Assembly (NCBI RefSeq): GCF_017303295.1
Contig: NZ_JAFKOK010000014.1
Span: 62,001-126,000, forward strand
Source of the DNA: Rhodobacter sp. NTK016B
GTDB lineage: Bacteria > Pseudomonadota > Alphaproteobacteria > Rhodobacterales > Rhodobacteraceae
Direction: 5' to 3'
DNA: 64,000 nt
Under the pieces are notes generated by a model that was given only the letters and a program-made list of their open reading frames with translations, was not told the origin of the DNA and made no database searches. Made by a program: the position numbers and the translations under genes. This document shows, in pieces, positions 54,487-63,268 of the stretch (positions are counted from its first letter, which is position 1; every line of letters begins with the position of its first letter).

Positions 54487-55956
54487 ATGACCGCATTCGA
54501 CGAAATCGTCGCGCATGAGCGCACCAGCTGGGCCCTGTCGCAGGTGATGGGTCGCCTGGGCTGGGATCAGGAAACCGTCATGCCGCGCGGCGCCGCCGAG
54601 CAGCGCGGCGAGGAAATGGCGGCGATGGAGGAAGTGCTGCACGCGCGGCGCACCGATCCGCGCCTTGGCGAGTGGCTGGAAGCGGCCACCGCCCCCGATG
54701 CGAAAGGCGAGGCGATCCTGCGCCATGTCCGCCGCTCGTACACCCGCAATACCCGCGTGCCCGCCGCGCTTGCCTCGGAAATCGCCCGCGTGACCTCGGT
54801 CGCGCAGGGTGTCTGGGCCGAGGCCCGCGCACGCGATGACGTGCCGCATTTCCTGCCCACCCTCACGCGGGTGATCGAGTTGCGGCGCGAGGAAGCCTCG
54901 GCGCTGGCCGAGAATGGCGCGCTCTATGACGCGCTGCTCAACGATTACGAACCCGGCATCACTGGCGACGAGGTCGCGGAGATCTTCGCGCGGATGCGCA
55001 CACGGCTGGTCTCGCTGCGCGAGAAGGTGCTGGGCGCGGAGTATCAACCCGCGCCGCTGAAAGGCGAATTCCCGCGCGAAGGGCAGCTGCGTCTGAGCCG
55101 CCTGCTGGCCGAGACCTTTGGCTACGATTTCGCCCATGGGCGGCTCGATCTGGCCGTCCATCCCTTTTCATCAGGGTCGGGCGCGGATGCGCGCATCACC
55201 ACAAGGGTGGCCGAAAGCGATCCGTTCAACTGCCTTTATTCGACGATCCACGAAGTGGGCCATGCCTGCTACGAGCAGAATATCGCCCCGGATTACCGCT
55301 ATTCGCCGTTGGGCGAAGGCGTGTCGATGGGCGTGCATGAAAGCCAGAGCCGGATCTACGAGAACCAGGTTGGCCGTTCGCGCGCCTTCACGGGCTGGCT
55401 GCATGGGCAGATGCGCCACGAATTCGGCGATCTGGGTCTGGATCCCGAGGCGTTTTTCGGCGCGGTCAACCGGGTGCAGCCGGGCTATATCCGCACCGAG
55501 AGCGACGAGGTGCATTACAACCTGCACATCATGATGCGCTTCGATCTGGAACGCGCGCTGATCTCGGGCGATCTGAAACCCGCCGATCTGGAAGCGGCGT
55601 GGAACGACCGGTTCCTCAAGGATTTCGGTGTCGCAGTGGACCGCCCGTCGCACGGAATGCTGCAGGATGTGCACTGGTCTGTGGGTCTGTTCGGCTATTT
55701 CCCGACCTATGCTTTGGGCAATGTCTATGCGGGCTGCCTGATGAAGGCGTTGCGCAAGGATCTGGTGGGGATCGACACCGCGCTGGCGGAGGGCCGGCCT
55801 ACCGTCGCGACCGAATGGCTGACCGAAAAGCTGCAACGCCATGGCGGCCTGCGCGAGCCACGCGACACGATCGCCCATGCCAGTGGTTTCGAGCCGTCGG
55901 AAGCCCCGCTGATGGATTATCTGGAGGCGAAATTCAGCGACCTTTACCGGCTCTGA
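54487..55956 (+). CDS. M32 family carboxypeptidase
   Basis: The 489-residue metallopeptidase trims C-terminal residues from peptides in the cytoplasm. The zinc site is STIHEVGHACYEQN (HExxH, about residues 254-258) with the third ligand Glu in MGVHESQSRIYENQVGRS. RTESDEVHYNLHIMMRFDLER is another M32 hallmark. Start 54487 is 3 bp after ctaA, so they are co-transcribed. Its stop codon TGA is the origin of the 12-bp tandem repeat that follows. Confidence 0.93.
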   Translation: MTAFDEIVAHERTSWALSQVMGRLGWDQETVMPRGAAEQRGEEMAAMEEVLHARRTDPRLGEWLEAATAPDAKGEAILRHVRRSYTRNTRVPAALASEIARVTSVAQGVWAEARARDDVPHFLPTLTRVIELRREEASALAENGALYDALLNDYEPGITGDEVAEIFARMRTRLVSLREKVLGAEYQPAPLKGEFPREGQLRLSRLLAETFGYDFAHGRLDLAVHPFSSGSGADARITTRVAESDPFNCLYSTIHEVGHACYEQNIAPDYRYSPLGEGVSMGVHESQSRIYENQVGRSRAFTGWLHGQMRHEFGDLGLDPEAFFGAVNRVQPGYIRTESDEVHYNLHIMMRFDLERALISGDLKPADLEAAWNDRFLKDFGVAVDRPSHGMLQDVHWSVGLFGYFPTYALGNVYAGCLMKALRKDLVGIDTALAEGRPTVATEWLTEKLQRHGGLREPRDTIAHASGFEPSEAPLMDYLEAKFSDLYRL

Positions 55957-55959
55957 CAA

Positions 55960-56019
55960 GGGCTCTGAAACGGGTTCTGAAACGGGTTCTGAAACGGGTT
56001 CTGAAGGGGGTTCTGAAGG
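55960..56019 (+). repeat. Five tandem 12-bp units after the M32 gene
   Basis: The units are GGGCTCTGAAAC, GGGTTCTGAAAC twice and GGGTTCTGAAGG twice, without gaps. A degenerate unit CGGCTCTGACAA (55948-55959) covers the last codons and the stop of the carboxypeptidase gene. Because the unit is a multiple of three, every copy carries a TGA in frame with the gene. Confidence 0.9.
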
Positions 56020-58174: not shown

Positions 58175-58249
58175 TGGGGCGTAGCCAAGTGGTAAGGCAA
58201 CGGTTTTTGGTACCGTGTACCGTAGGTTCGAATCCTACCGCCCCAGCCA
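58175..58249 (+). tRNA. tRNA-Gln (anticodon UUG)
   Basis: A 75-nt cloverleaf with CCA encoded. Acceptor arms are TGGGGCG (58175-58181) and CGCCCCA (58239-58245), then G-CCA. The D stem is GCC/GGC, the anticodon arm is ACGGT-TTTTGGT-ACCGT with TTG at positions 34-36, and the T arm is GTAGG-TTCGAAT-CCTAC. G37 is a small deviation from the usual A37. Confidence 0.97.
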
Positions 58250-58428: not shown

Positions 58429-59154
58429 TCAGATCTCGATTTTCTGGAAACCGTCGCGCAGGGCGTTGGACCATGCCTGCGACATCGCGCGGAAGGATTC
58501 GTTCTCGGCCTCGATCCGCTCGCTGCGGGTGACGCGGCAGGCGTCTTTCTCGATCACCGCGAAATCGAGCGGCATCCCCACCGAGAGATTCGAACGCAGT
58601 GTCGAATCCATCGACAGGAAGACCGCCTTGCGCGCGTCTTCCAGCGAGGTGTCGGGCGAGACCACGCGGTCGAGGATCGGCTTGCCGTATTTGTGCTCGC
58701 CGATCTGAAGATAGGGCGTGTCTTCGGTCGATTCGATGAAATTGCCCTCGGGATAGATGAGGAACATCCGCATTGTCCCCCCCTTGCGCTGGCCTGCGAC
58801 GATCATCGAGGCGGCGGTCGAAACCTTCGAGGCCTGCATCTTGGCGTCGATATCCTGACGCACAGAGGCCAGCGTGTTGCCGACGATCTCGGCCACTTCC
58901 AGCATCGTGTTGGCCTGCATGATCGAGGGCGTGTCCTCGGTCTCGGGATGCTCGATCCCGTCGCGGAGCTGGGCCAGCGTGGTCTGCGTGACCGACAGGC
59001 TGCCCGCCGTGAGGATGACGATGCAGCGCTCGCCCGATTCCTCGAAGGTGAACATCTTGCGGTAGGTGGCGATATTGTCGAGCCCCGCATTGGTGCGGGT
59101 GTCAGACAGCAGAACCATCCCGGCCTTCAGCAGCAATCCCACGCAATAGGTCAC
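58429..59154 (-). CDS. anbu: Anbu proteasome-homologue peptidase
   Basis: The 241-residue protein is the Anbu (ancestral beta-subunit) Ntn hydrolase, a bacterial relative of proteasome beta subunits. The start is GTG at 59154; once the initiator Met is removed the N-terminal residue is Thr (MTYCVGLLLKAG), the expected nucleophile. VLLSDTRTNAGLD holds the Asp of the active site and RKMFTF the Lys. Length is normal. It is the last gene of the four-gene Anbu operon, 61 bp after the transglutaminase. Its substrates are unknown. Confidence 0.9.
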   Translation of the reverse strand: MTYCVGLLLKAGMVLLSDTRTNAGLDNIATYRKMFTFEESGERCIVILTAGSLSVTQTTLAQLRDGIEHPETEDTPSIMQANTMLEVAEIVGNTLASVRQDIDAKMQASKVSTAASMIVAGQRKGGTMRMFLIYPEGNFIESTEDTPYLQIGEHKYGKPILDRVVSPDTSLEDARKAVFLSMDSTLRSNLSVGMPLDFAVIEKDACRVTRSERIEAENESFRAMSQAWSNALRDGFQKIEI

Positions 59155-59215
59155 GTTACACCGGCCCTCTCAGCCCCGCCGCGCCCCGCCAGCCGGGGCC
59201 TGCGAACGCCCGTGC

Positions 59216-60022
59216 TTACTGTTGCGCCGACGCGATCGCAACGGCAATCTCCATGGTTTCCGAGCCCGGCCCACGGGCGATGCCCCGGATCGGGGCCGCG
59301 CCCTCGGCATCGGCGCCGCAGCCCAGCCGGATATACCGCTCATCGGGGCAGCATTCATTGGCGGGGTCGAAGCCGACCCAGCCGAGCCCGTCGATCCAGA
59401 TCTCGGCCCAGGCATGCGCGGCCTCGTGCGACTTGCCGTCCGAATCGGTAAACAGATAGCCCGAGACGTAGCGCGCCGGCATTCCGCGCGCCCGCGCGCA
59501 GGCGATAAGGGCATGGGCATGGTCCTGACAGACGCCCTGCCCCTGCTCCAGCGCCTCGGCGGCGGTGGTATGGGCATCGGTCGCGCCCGGCGTATAGGCG
59601 ATCGCACCCGATACCTTGGCCGACAGATCATGCGCCAGCGCCAGTCCGGTTTCGCCCGACGCCTTGGCCGCCAGCGCCTTCAGTCCGCCATCGGCGATGG
59701 TCGGGCCGGTCTCGCCCAGCCACGCGATGGGCGAGAGCAATTCGCGATTGCCGCGCAGAACGCCCGCGCAGTCGGTCGTCGTGACGCTGCCGGTGACGCG
59801 GACCTCGATCCGGTCGACCGGGCCGGTAACCGTCCAGCCCTGCACGTAATCGCCCGCACCGTCACGGAAACTGCCGCCCATCATGCCGTCGGAAACCGTC
59901 ACGTTCCAGCTTTGCACGCTCTGGTTCAGGCATTGGGTCGGCAGCAGGCGGTGGCTTTGCACCACGCCACGTACCGGCTGGTCGTAGATATAGGTGGTGA
60001 CGTGTTCGACCGTCAGTTTCAT
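59216..60022 (-). CDS. Transglutaminase-like cysteine peptidase of the Anbu operon
   Basis: The 268-residue protein has the N-terminal beta domain (EHVTTYIYDQPVRGVVQSHRL in the first 25 residues) and the transglutaminase-like catalytic core. The triad is Cys in GQGVCQDHAHALIA (about residue 165), His in EAAHAWAEIW and Asp in GWVGFDPANECCPDE. It probably cleaves or forms peptide or isopeptide bonds together with the ATP-grasp partner. It overlaps the alpha-E gene by 4 bp. Confidence 0.9.
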   Translation of the reverse strand: MKLTVEHVTTYIYDQPVRGVVQSHRLLPTQCLNQSVQSWNVTVSDGMMGGSFRDGAGDYVQGWTVTGPVDRIEVRVTGSVTTTDCAGVLRGNRELLSPIAWLGETGPTIADGGLKALAAKASGETGLALAHDLSAKVSGAIAYTPGATDAHTTAAEALEQGQGVCQDHAHALIACARARGMPARYVSGYLFTDSDGKSHEAAHAWAEIWIDGLGWVGFDPANECCPDERYIRLGCGADAEGAAPIRGIARGPGSETMEIAVAIASAQQ

Positions 60023-60972
60023 CGCACATCCCCATTGAGATAAGCCGCATGGACCCGCCCGCCGAGATCGCCGATCTCGGAGATAAAGCGCATGAGGAAT
60101 TCGTGCAGCCCCTCTTCAAAGATCGTCTCGGTCGAGGTCTCGAACATCCGCGCCATCATGTTGCGCGCGGCGCTCTGGGCCTCGGTCGGGCGGCGGTAAT
60201 AGCGCGCGAGCCGGTCGAGATGCAGGTTGAGCGCCTCGACGCAGGGCACGAGGCCGCGCGGGGTCTGCGGGTTCAGGATCAGGAAATGGGCGATCTTGCG
60301 CGCGGTGATCTCGCCGCCATAGGCCCAGTGAAAGGCGCGGTGCAGCGACATCGCCCGCAACAGCGTGCGCCATTGGTAATTGTCCAGCCCCGAACCCACG
60401 AAATCGGCATGCGGCAGCAGGACCCAGTATTTCACGTCGAGCAGCCGCGCCGTGCTGTCGGCACGCTCAAGATAGTAGCCGATATTCAGGAAATCCCAGC
60501 CATCGTTGCGCAGATGGGTCGTATCCATCGCGCCGCGCACCATTGCGCAGTGCCGCCGCGTCCAGTCGGTCAGACGGTTGAGCGACTGATCCGAGCGCGG
60601 CTCGCGCTCGATCTGGCGCATTTCCTGAAACGCGGTGTTCAGCGCGTCCCACATCTGCGTCGTCAGCGCCGTGCGCACGATGCGCCCGTTTTCGCGCGCA
60701 GCGGTGATGCAGGATATGACCGAAGACGGATTCTCGCGGTCGAAGAACAGATGGCTCTCGATGTTGCGCTGCACCGGGTCGCCGTATTTCTTCATGAAGG
60801 TGTCGTGCGTGCCATTGGCATGCAGCAGCGCCTCCCATTCGTTGCGGTAGCCCTGTTCGGAATTGGGCAGCATGGCGATCCGCGCCCCCACTTCCAGAAG
60901 CCGGGCAGCGGTTTCAGCGCGCTCCATGTAGCGGGCCAGCCAGAACAGGTTATCGGCGGTTCTACTCAACAT
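60019..60972 (-). CDS. Alpha-E domain protein of the Anbu operon
   Basis: The 317-residue all-helical protein matches the alpha-E family. Landmarks are MLSRTADNLFWLARYMERAE at the start (the family hallmark with ARYMERAE), RNIESHLFFDRENPSSV, and NIGYYLERADSTARLLDVKY, the second ERA motif. No catalytic residues are known, and the family is found beside ATP-grasp and transglutaminase genes. ATG 60972 has GGAG 8 bp upstream, while the upstream frame to 61365 overlaps the ATP-grasp gene and is a shadow. Confidence 0.9.
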   Translation of the reverse strand: MLSRTADNLFWLARYMERAETAARLLEVGARIAMLPNSEQGYRNEWEALLHANGTHDTFMKKYGDPVQRNIESHLFFDRENPSSVISCITAARENGRIVRTALTTQMWDALNTAFQEMRQIEREPRSDQSLNRLTDWTRRHCAMVRGAMDTTHLRNDGWDFLNIGYYLERADSTARLLDVKYWVLLPHADFVGSGLDNYQWRTLLRAMSLHRAFHWAYGGEITARKIAHFLILNPQTPRGLVPCVEALNLHLDRLARYYRRPTEAQSAARNMMARMFETSTETIFEEGLHEFLMRFISEIGDLGGRVHAAYLNGDVR

Positions 60973-60977
60973 ATCTG

Positions 60978-62390
60978 TTACTCCGCCAACACCCAGGTAT
61001 CCTTGACCCCGCCGCCCTGCGACGAGTTCACGACGAGCGACCCCTCGCGCAGCGCGACGCGCGTCAGGCCCCCCGGGACCAGCGCGATCCGCTCGCCCAC
61101 AAGGCAATAGGGCCGCAAATCGACGTGCCGCGGCGCCACGCCTTCCTCGACGAAGCTGGGCACGGTCGACAGGGCCAGCGTCGGCTGGGCGATGTAATTG
61201 TCGGGATCGGCCTCGATCTTGGCGCGGAAGATCTCGATCTGCTCCTTGGTGGATTTGGGCCCCACCAGCATCCCGTATCCGCCCGAGCCATGGACCTCCT
61301 TGACGACCAGCTCGCCCAGATTGTCGAGCACGTATTTGCACTCGTCCTCCTTGGCGCATTGCCATGTCGGCACGTTGTTCAGGATCGGCTCTTCGCCCAG
61401 ATAAAAGCGCACCATTTCCGGCACGAAGGTGTAGACCGCCTTGTCATCCGCGACCCCGGCACCGGGGGCCGAGCAGATGCTGACCCCGCCCGAGCGATAG
61501 ACATCCATCAGCCCCGGCACGCCCAGCATCGAATCCGGCCGGAAACACAACGGGTCCAGAAACGCGTCATCGATCCGGCGATAGATCACATCCACCTTAC
61601 GCGGGCCTTCGGTCGTGCGCATCCAGACGAATTCGCCCTCGACGAACAGATCCTGCCCCTCGACCAGCTCGACCCCCATCATGTCGGCAAGGAAGGAATG
61701 CTCGTAATACGCGCTGTTGAAATGGCCGGGCGTCAGGATCACCACATTGGGCTCGCGGTCGCATTTTTCGGGCGCGACCGAGGCAAGGGTCTGGCGCAGG
61801 ATCTCGGGATAGGCCTCGACCGGCTGGATATGGTTGGTGCTGAAGAGTTCGGGGAACATCCGCATCATGATTTCCCGGTTTTCCAGCATGTAGCTGACCC
61901 CCGAGGGTGTGCGGCAATTGTCTTCCAGCACGAAGAAATCGTCGGGCCCGGTCCGCACAAGATCGATGCCGACGATATGGCTGTAGACCCCTTTGGGTGG
62001 CTTGATGCCCGCCACGACTTTCTCATAGGCGTCGTTGAGATAAACCAGCTTGGCCGGGATCCGCCCTGCCCGCACGATTTCACCGCGATCGTAGACATCG
62101 GCAAGGAACGCATTCAGCGCCCGCGCCCGCTGTTTGATACCGCGCTCGAGCCGCGTCCATTCGCGTCCGCTGAACACCCGCGGGAACATGTCGAACGGGA
62201 TCAGCCGGTCGGGATCGCCGCCTTCGCCATAAACCGCGAAGGTGATCCCGATCCGTCGGAAAAGGGCTTCGGCTTCGGCTTGTTTCAGATTGCGCAATTC
62301 TGCGGGCATCTGATCGACCCAGCCCTGCAGATGCGCGTAAGGCGCTCTAACCGCGCCGTTTTCCATCATTTCGTTGAAATAATTTATCAT
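60978..62390 (-). CDS. Circularly permuted ATP-grasp type 2 protein of the Anbu operon
   Basis: The 470-residue protein is a predicted amidoligase. Landmarks are AYEKVVAGIKPPKGVYSHIVG, FFVLEDNCRTPSGVSYMLEN (metal and nucleotide loop), VVILTPGHFNSAYYEHSFLA and LVVKEVHGSGGYGMLVGP, the permuted ATP-grasp order. It is proposed to build a short peptide tag or modify protein carboxyls. ATG 62390 begins the conserved region. As the first gene, it carries the likely operon promoter. Confidence 0.88.
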   Translation of the reverse strand: MINYFNEMMENGAVRAPYAHLQGWVDQMPAELRNLKQAEAEALFRRIGITFAVYGEGGDPDRLIPFDMFPRVFSGREWTRLERGIKQRARALNAFLADVYDRGEIVRAGRIPAKLVYLNDAYEKVVAGIKPPKGVYSHIVGIDLVRTGPDDFFVLEDNCRTPSGVSYMLENREIMMRMFPELFSTNHIQPVEAYPEILRQTLASVAPEKCDREPNVVILTPGHFNSAYYEHSFLADMMGVELVEGQDLFVEGEFVWMRTTEGPRKVDVIYRRIDDAFLDPLCFRPDSMLGVPGLMDVYRSGGVSICSAPGAGVADDKAVYTFVPEMVRFYLGEEPILNNVPTWQCAKEDECKYVLDNLGELVVKEVHGSGGYGMLVGPKSTKEQIEIFRAKIEADPDNYIAQPTLALSTVPSFVEEGVAPRHVDLRPYCLVGERIALVPGGLTRVALREGSLVVNSSQGGGVKDTWVLAE

Positions 62391-62412: not shown

Positions 62413-62440
62413 AGTGTAGTCGATCCGGCGCGCTCGGCAA
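62413..62440 (-). promoter_or_regulatory. Candidate promoter of the Anbu operon
   Basis: On the minus strand TTGCCG (62435-62440) and TACACT (62413-62418) are 16 bp apart, with the start codon 23 bp beyond the -10. The match is moderate. The 308-bp divergent gap 62391-62698 holds no gene. Confidence 0.35.
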
Positions 62441-62698: not shown

Positions 62699-63268
62699 AT
62701 GAAACTGGCCACTCTCGCCGCGATCGCCACCCTCACCGCCAGCGCCGGTTTCGCCCAGGATTTCGGCCCGGCGCTCGAAGGCTATTACAATTCGGAACTC
62801 AGCGCGCTCGGCAGCGACCCCGCGATCCTCGACGCCGTGCGCGCACAGAACGCGGTGACGTCGTCCTATGACGGCGACCGCATCGCCGCGCTCGACCGCA
62901 CCTGGCAGGCTGAACTGGGCCAGGCCGACATGCCCACCATCACCCCCGTTCTGGGCAATGCCCTGTCCGACCATCTGCGCAGCGAAGTTGAAGCCTCGCG
63001 CGGGCGTATCACCGAAATCATCGTGATGGACGCGGTCGGCCTCAATGTCGCTGTCTCTGCGGCCACGTCGGATTACTGGCAGGGGGATGAAGCGAAATTC
63101 ACCGAAACCTACGGCGCGGGCCCCGGCGCCCTGCATCTGAGCGACATCGAACTCGACGAATCGACCGGCCGCTATCAGGGGCAGATCTCGTTCCCGCTGG
63201 TCGATCCCGATACGGGCAGCCTGATCGGCGCCATGACTGTCGGTGTCGATGCCGAGCAACTGATGTGA
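62699..63268 (+). CDS. Secreted PDC-type sensor domain protein
   Basis: The 189-residue protein has a signal peptide (MKLATLAAIATLTASAGF, cleavage after FAQ at about residue 20). The mature part is a single PDC/Cache-like fold: EIIVMDAVGLNVAVSAATSD, DYWQGDEAKFTETYG and GQISFPLVDPDTGSLIGAMT, the usual ligand-pocket elements. Lacking any membrane helix or output domain, it may bind a ligand in the periplasm and report to the sensor encoded 24 bp downstream. AGGGGA lies before the ATG. Confidence 0.75.
   Translation: MKLATLAAIATLTASAGFAQDFGPALEGYYNSELSALGSDPAILDAVRAQNAVTSSYDGDRIAALDRTWQAELGQADMPTITPVLGNALSDHLRSEVEASRGRITEIIVMDAVGLNVAVSAATSDYWQGDEAKFTETYGAGPGALHLSDIELDESTGRYQGQISFPLVDPDTGSLIGAMTVGVDAEQLM

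Follow-up and report, generated by a model that had tools for sequence, protein, structure and literature searches.

The Anbu operon of Rhodobacter sp. NTK016B

The 64,000-nucleotide stretch of Rhodobacter sp. NTK016B analysed here (hereafter the window), which belongs to a genome of 4.84 Mb, carries near one end a complete Anbu operon, in which the genes for a circularly permuted ATP-grasp protein, an Alpha-E protein and a transglutaminase-like protein precede that for Anbu, a relative of the proteasome (Table 1). The four complete genes that the initial annotation had described were recovered with the same coordinates, strand, lengths and spacing, and all four products match Pfam families. 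The ATP-grasp and Alpha-E genes are separated by 5 bases (+5), those of Alpha-E and the transglutaminase-like protein overlap by 4 bases (-4), and a gap of 61 bases (+61) precedes Anbu. The solved chains that match the Anbu gene are Anbu entries (5loy, E = 5e-72; 5nyj, 3e-71; 5nyf, 1.1e-70; 5nyw, 6.2e-58; 5lox, 1.3e-55), and the alignment to solved Anbu sequences is nearly full-length, reaching residue 240 of 5nyj. The nearest solved chains to the ATP-grasp and to the transglutaminase-like protein are 3n6x, named putative glutathionylspermidine synthase, and 3isr, named putative transglutaminase-like cysteine protease, respectively. That these genes are an ordinary orthologue of the Anbu operon is, in our judgement, practically certain.

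Table 1. Features of the window and of the related cluster in the same genome
Feature	Position	Strand	Description	Matches (E value)
Circularly permuted ATP-grasp	60978-62390	-	470 aa, ATG start at 62390	PF14403 (CP_ATPgrasp_2) 3.7e-165; PF04174 3e-148; 3n6x 4.2e-197
Alpha-E	60019-60972	-	317 aa, ER motifs at 17-18 and 169-170	PF04168 2.5e-87
Transglutaminase-like protein	59216-60022	-	268 aa, C165/H203/D219	PF01841 (Transglut_core) 2.9e-23; PF08379 (Bact_transglu_N) 4.6e-15
Anbu	58429-59154	-	241 aa, GTG start, Thr second, T2/D18/K33	PF00227 (Proteasome) 6.8e-07; solved Anbu chains
Sister cluster	L095:8077-14863 (G000:C4:14000-33000)		transglutaminase-DUF2126, 1148 aa; ATP-grasp/Alpha-E fusion, 808 aa; transglutaminase, 295 aa	
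Possible promoter element (tentative)	62413-62440	-	TTGCCG-N16-TACACT, by eye; similar only in L015, L016 and L017, the nearest relatives compared	
tRNA-Gln (TTG)	58175-58249			

The system is already known and this copy of it is ordinary. The operon has been described in Pseudomonas, Yersinia and other bacteria (PMC5666114, PMC6376114), its first descriptions being, as cited, those of Valas and Bourne 2008 and Iyer et al. 2009. Because both the operon and Anbu structures have been published, the suggestion of the initial annotation that this locus was the best candidate for an undescribed system is rejected. Part of the testing that the initial annotation called for has been published: besides the negative activity and interaction results taken up below (PMC6376114), co-expression gave no different form of Anbu, and essentiality was not seen under non-stress conditions (PMC5666114). 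The copy here shares with the published operon all four families, their order and an N-terminal Thr accompanied by Asp and Lys, and we found no difference of substance. None of the four proteins matched the PADLOC models of known anti-phage defence. In the open-licence literature we found no later paper on the function of the operon.

Conservation of the operon in relatives

One protein search of the genome collection yielded 80 loci, which are the base for the gene-order counts. In 74 of them all four genes are co-directional and keep the operon's order; since so many loci keep this order, the arrangement exceeds what chance would give. The remaining six comprise three loci cut by contig ends (L028, L054, L076) and three with Anbu alone (L047, L086, L089). 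In the genome of L047 an Alpha-E gene lies elsewhere, away from the solitary Anbu, and no Alpha-E was found in the genomes of L086 and L089, which are titled as metagenome-assembled genomes of unstated completeness. The closest relatives listed in the collection belong to Pararhodobacter, with Anbu proteins 93% and 91% identical to ours. Twelve loci (L003-L014) are too short to contain the ATP-grasp. Of 85 measured pairs of Alpha-E and transglutaminase genes, 79 overlap by 4 or 1 bases.

Of 149 genomes of the family, 105 had a match, and from these we picked by hand 20 loci of a divergent group whose Anbu is 42-54% identical. The order also holds there, with 18 of the 20 presenting the same arrangement. 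The small transglutaminase is absent between Alpha-E and Anbu in L098 (91-6783) and L100. A transglutaminase-DUF2126 gene adjoins the operon in L098, according to Pfam, and the transglutaminase match of L100 sits in a long frame similar to that of L098. The flanks were compared through open reading frames (ORFs) of at least 70 aa, reported when recurring in at least five loci. Outside the operon, only a HI0933-like flavoprotein of the window, together with its antisense frame, recurs (6/80 loci); no flank of this kind is common to the 80 loci, and a fifth conserved operon gene was rejected on the same count.

Catalytic residues of the four proteins

Residue conservation was determined within length bands (113 rows for Anbu, 107 for the transglutaminase, 95 for Alpha-E and 93 for the ATP-grasp), in which the window is counted together with its own copy in the collection (L003) where this is complete. 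Residues C165, H203 and D219 of the transglutaminase-like protein, which we take to be its Cys-His-Asp triad, are conserved in at least 97% of the rows, and the same figure applies to the E17-R18 and E169-R170 pairs of Alpha-E. Anbu residues T2, D18 and K33 are invariant in 17 aligned proteins and at least 97% conserved in the full set; once Met is removed they coincide with the published Thr1, Asp17 and Lys32 (PMC6376114). The initial annotation had proposed that the GTG start leaves Thr as the N-terminal residue after Met removal. The statement about Thr holds well, as the beginning MTYCVG is encoded in all 92 loci examined (L003-L094, the window's own copy included). The GTG codon itself carries no meaning, because these same loci use ATG in 87 cases, GTG in 4 and TTG in 1.

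In the ATP-grasp, residues D143, E156, N158, K317, K364 and D424 are invariant in all 17 stand-alone copies aligned. In molecular dynamics of trypanothione synthetase (TryS), Mg is bound by Asp330, Glu344 and Asn346, and Ser351 touches the substrate (PMC3581523); the spacing E156-x-N158-x4-S163 equals the Glu344-x-Asn346-x4-Ser351 of that enzyme, a match of motifs and not a superposition. Because the profile of the ATP-grasp reaches only 3n6x in PDB, with no match to solved TryS or glutathionylspermidine synthetase (GspS), the roles that we assign to these residues rest on motif spacing. The ATP-grasp thus shares the E-x-N-x4-S spacing with these two synthetases and differs from them in that the activities here are on separate polypeptides, Alpha-E is present and the hydrolases belong to other families.

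Anbu itself resembles HslV and the 20S proteasome in belonging to the Proteasome family (Pfam) and in carrying Thr, Asp and Lys at the same positions. It differs from them in that no AAA+ gene was found among the three neighbouring ORFs scanned here and no flank is shared by the 80 loci; its score for the archaeal beta subunit, 23.2 bits, lies below the cut-off of 224, and a separate HslV-like gene lies elsewhere in the genome. This further proteasome-family gene (L139:1414-2037; PF00227, 1.0e-25) is presumably HslV.

The ATP-grasp/Alpha-E pair as probable core and Anbu as accessory

The co-occurrence of Alpha-E, CP_ATPgrasp_2, Anbu and DUF2126 was surveyed in 299 Pseudomonadota genomes, that of the window included. 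Alpha-E was present in 156 genomes, CP_ATPgrasp_2 in 161 (157 over the cut-off; the 161 include five weak matches without Alpha-E), Anbu in 102 and DUF2126 in 84. Alpha-E never occurred without the ATP-grasp (156/156), and both members of the pair accompanied Anbu in 101 of its 102 genomes and DUF2126 in all 84. By contrast, 55 of the 156 genomes with the pair are devoid of Anbu. The genomes with the pair divide into 51 that have both Anbu and DUF2126, 50 with Anbu, 33 with DUF2126 and 22 with the pair alone. Considering the Alpha-E positions that are listed, Anbu starts within 10 kb of one in 86 of 102 genomes (79 on the same strand and 7 on the opposite one), and three Anbu genomes have no listed Alpha-E position.

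Since Anbu is nearly always found with the pair and the pair is often found without Anbu, the dependence is that of Anbu on the pair, in one direction only, and the ATP-grasp and Alpha-E are likely to form the core of the system with Anbu as an accessory. Treating the four genes as an undifferentiated unit overlooks that the pair is constant while Anbu is optional. This asymmetry makes the ATP-grasp/Alpha-E pair the first target for assays, with Anbu treated as downstream. The pair is widespread, and its function would reveal the purpose of the proteasome relative that accompanies it.

Alpha-E is an internal duplication

Alignment of the N-terminal half of Alpha-E (8-148) with its C-terminal half (157-306) gave an hhalign probability of 98.3 (E = 1.5e-14). 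In the control, the real score was 85.2 (probability 98.1) versus 19.5 for the best of 60 column shuffles and 11.2 for the reversed half. The two ER motifs, one per half, correspond in this alignment. Judged from its sequence, then, Alpha-E is an internal tandem duplication. An AlphaFold2 model built from 51 sequences (the window and 50 of 70 relatives) is all helical, with a mean predicted local distance difference test (pLDDT) of 88.5 and a predicted template modelling score (pTM) of 0.88. We found no relative of Alpha-E in PDB by sequence, and Foldseek searches with the model gave no match with E of 0.001 or lower, whether against 350,542 PDB chains (best E 0.54) or against BFVD (best E 0.042); the template modelling score (TM-score) was at most 0.28 among the 50 matches listed for each. 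The model leaves it possible, though not proved, that the fold is new to PDB. Among viral contigs, 41 pattern matches were inspected for Alpha-E and none was a relative.

A sister cluster with fused ATP-grasps

The genome holds a second cluster (L095; Table 1) with the same core families as the Anbu operon. It differs from the operon in having no Anbu match, the genome possessing a single Anbu, in the fusion of its ATP-grasp to Alpha-E and in the addition of DUF2126, which its Pfam name marks as a putative amidoligase. We aligned 17 stand-alone ATP-grasps with 16 fused ones, the fusion loci being those chosen through DUF2126 matches. Residue E156 is replaced by G, A or S and N158 by R in all 16 fusions, and K317 and D424 are likewise lost in 16/16; all four residues are invariant in the stand-alone copies. 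Given the loss of these residues, the fused ATP-grasp looks like a dead ligase, and its fold is probably kept, because D143 (as D or E), S163 (15/16) and R426 (16/16) are largely retained. Against a strict replacement of the ATP-grasp by DUF2126 speak L098 and L120, where the ATP-grasp next to DUF2126 is not fused and has its motifs intact.

The two clusters might represent sister pathways of amide conjugation that follow one logic, with a live ATP-grasp and a duplicated, two-site helical Alpha-E, its fold absent so far from PDB, in the Anbu operon, and with the dead, fused ATP-grasp serving as a binding platform while DUF2126 ligates in the other. Alpha-E would then be the heart of both, a carrier holding the nascent conjugate for the ligase, the transglutaminase and, where present, Anbu. 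This scheme is speculative and we think it rather unlikely to be right as it stands. In any case, the fused and apparently dead ATP-grasps can be compared with their live counterpart within a single genome, as a contrast provided by nature. We found no prior mention of the Alpha-E duplication, of the absence of its fold from PDB or of the degenerate fused ATP-grasps in the open-licence literature searched, which did not include Iyer et al. 2009. These side results sharpen the testing of the long-standing question of what the Anbu operon does.

Regulation

Several reports link the system to nitrogen. In Pseudomonas putida grown on nitrate versus ammonium, PP_2685 (proteasome beta, the Anbu gene) and PP_2688 (ATP-grasp) changed by +4.44 and +3.99 log2 (PMC8050072). 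In Burkholderia cenocepacia, the related cluster I35_5080-83, which includes a large transglutaminase-like protein, depends on NtrC for its expression (PMC5491218). A Bradyrhizobium ATP-grasp gene has a predicted RpoN site at -113 (PMC13207237), the sigma-54 regulons predicted for alpha-, beta- and gamma-proteobacteria show an enrichment of COG3484 (PMC12316311), and an association with urea-metabolism domains was reported in marine metagenomes (PMC3597751).

The upstream regions of the operon in this family do not support such control, because none of the 72 compared has a strict sigma-54 box and only 2/72 have an NtrC-type palindrome; sigma-54 or NtrC control was therefore rejected here. A loose TGG-N-GC pattern, present in 63/72, is uninformative. 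The possible promoter element upstream of the ATP-grasp (Table 1) was not picked up by a consensus promoter scan, which found 1 site elsewhere versus 1.1 expected; the terminator consensus scan found 6 sites versus 3.0 expected (sd 2.1).

Proposed role of the operon and alternative explanations

Placing these results together, we propose that this ordinary orthologue of the Anbu operon, with its ligase/Alpha-E core and accessory Anbu, performs an ATP-driven amide conjugation with a division of labour among its proteins, a reading whose overall chances we regard as evenly balanced. The division of labour in its detail is tentative and, on the whole, doubtful. The ATP-grasp would activate a carboxylate as an acyl phosphate and join it to an amine, like its relatives glutathionylspermidine and trypanothione synthetase. 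Alpha-E, which always accompanies the ATP-grasp and in the sister cluster forms one protein with it, may be a duplicated helical subunit for docking or carrying, with its two ER sites holding out substrate or product. The transglutaminase-like enzyme would transfer the product, or cleave it again by amide exchange, and Anbu, as an N-terminal-Thr hydrolase, would trim or recycle the conjugate. The setting may be nitrogen limitation, as other species suggest; the promoter motifs here give it no support. In favour of the proposal stand the family matches, the shared gene order, the conserved residues with the motif spacing of trypanothione synthetase, the co-occurrence and proximity counts, and the response of the two P. 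putida genes to nitrate. Pairwise distances also correlate among the four proteins (r of 0.94-0.97 in 91 rows, and 0.72-0.83 for the 74 rows of the close clade, with no unlinked gene as control), and the ATP-grasp of Yersinia bercovieri releases phosphate from ATP.

Several observations weigh against this proposal. In one genome (G241, L133) Anbu occurs without either partner, and in 13 of 102 it lies on another contig or more than 10 kb from every listed Alpha-E, many of the genomes being drafts. The correlation of the protein distances may reflect common descent alone. The scarcity of sigma-54 boxes and NtrC-type palindromes belongs here as well, as does the report, cited in PMC5666114, that expression was unchanged under various conditions. 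On proteasome substrates, Anbu from three species showed no amidase activity, and the operon proteins of Y. bercovieri formed no specific complex (PMC6376114). Neither Anbu nor glutamine or glutamate stimulated the phosphate release of the latter species' ATP-grasp, for which plain ATP hydrolysis is an equally good explanation.

Other explanations have to be considered. The ATP-grasp and the transglutaminase could attach a peptide tag to proteins that Anbu then degrades, in the manner of ubiquitin or Pup with the proteasome. Such peptide tagging, which the initial annotation attributed to the literature, has indeed been proposed there, as summarised in PMC6376114, and it accords with the kinship of Anbu to the proteasome. 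It fits poorly, however, with the missing peptidase activity on proteasome substrates in that same paper, with the lack of an AAA+ gene among the neighbours scanned and of any shared flank, and with the failure to find a conserved extra ORF of at least 70 aa as the gene of a tag protein. Moreover, since 55/156 core genomes lack Anbu, the core has a use that does not require Anbu to degrade anything, and we consider the tagging of proteins for degradation unlikely. The unspecific degradation of proteins by Anbu in nitrogen starvation, with the transglutaminase freeing ammonia from glutamine side chains, is named as a possibility in PMC6376114 and would agree with the nitrogen induction in P. 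putida (PMC8050072) and the NtrC control in B. cenocepacia (PMC5491218). Yet it leaves the constancy of the ATP-grasp and Alpha-E unexplained, no proteolysis by Anbu was seen in the published tests (PMC6376114), and promoter motifs for nitrogen control are lacking here. All this makes recycling of this kind highly improbable.

A further alternative is a small-molecule pathway, in which the ATP-grasp would make a free amide like glutathionylspermidine, never attached to protein, and the transglutaminase and Anbu would be its amidases. The name of the closest solved ATP-grasp, 3n6x, and the Mg motif common to the ATP-grasp and trypanothione synthetase speak for it, and the synthetase-amidase of trypanosomatids also pairs ligation with hydrolysis (PMC2784880). 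The name of 3n6x is a depositor's label, however, no product is known, and such a pathway gives Alpha-E no needed role; we give it a rather low probability.

Neighbouring features

Upstream of the operon a divergent gene (62699-63268) encodes a small protein with a start that resembles a signal peptide by eye and with no Pfam match. On the other side of the operon lies the tRNA gene of Table 1, and further away, at 55952-56017, there is a 12-base tandem repeat of 5.5 copies at and past the end of the ORF at 54487-55956, whose product we assume to be an M32 carboxypeptidase.

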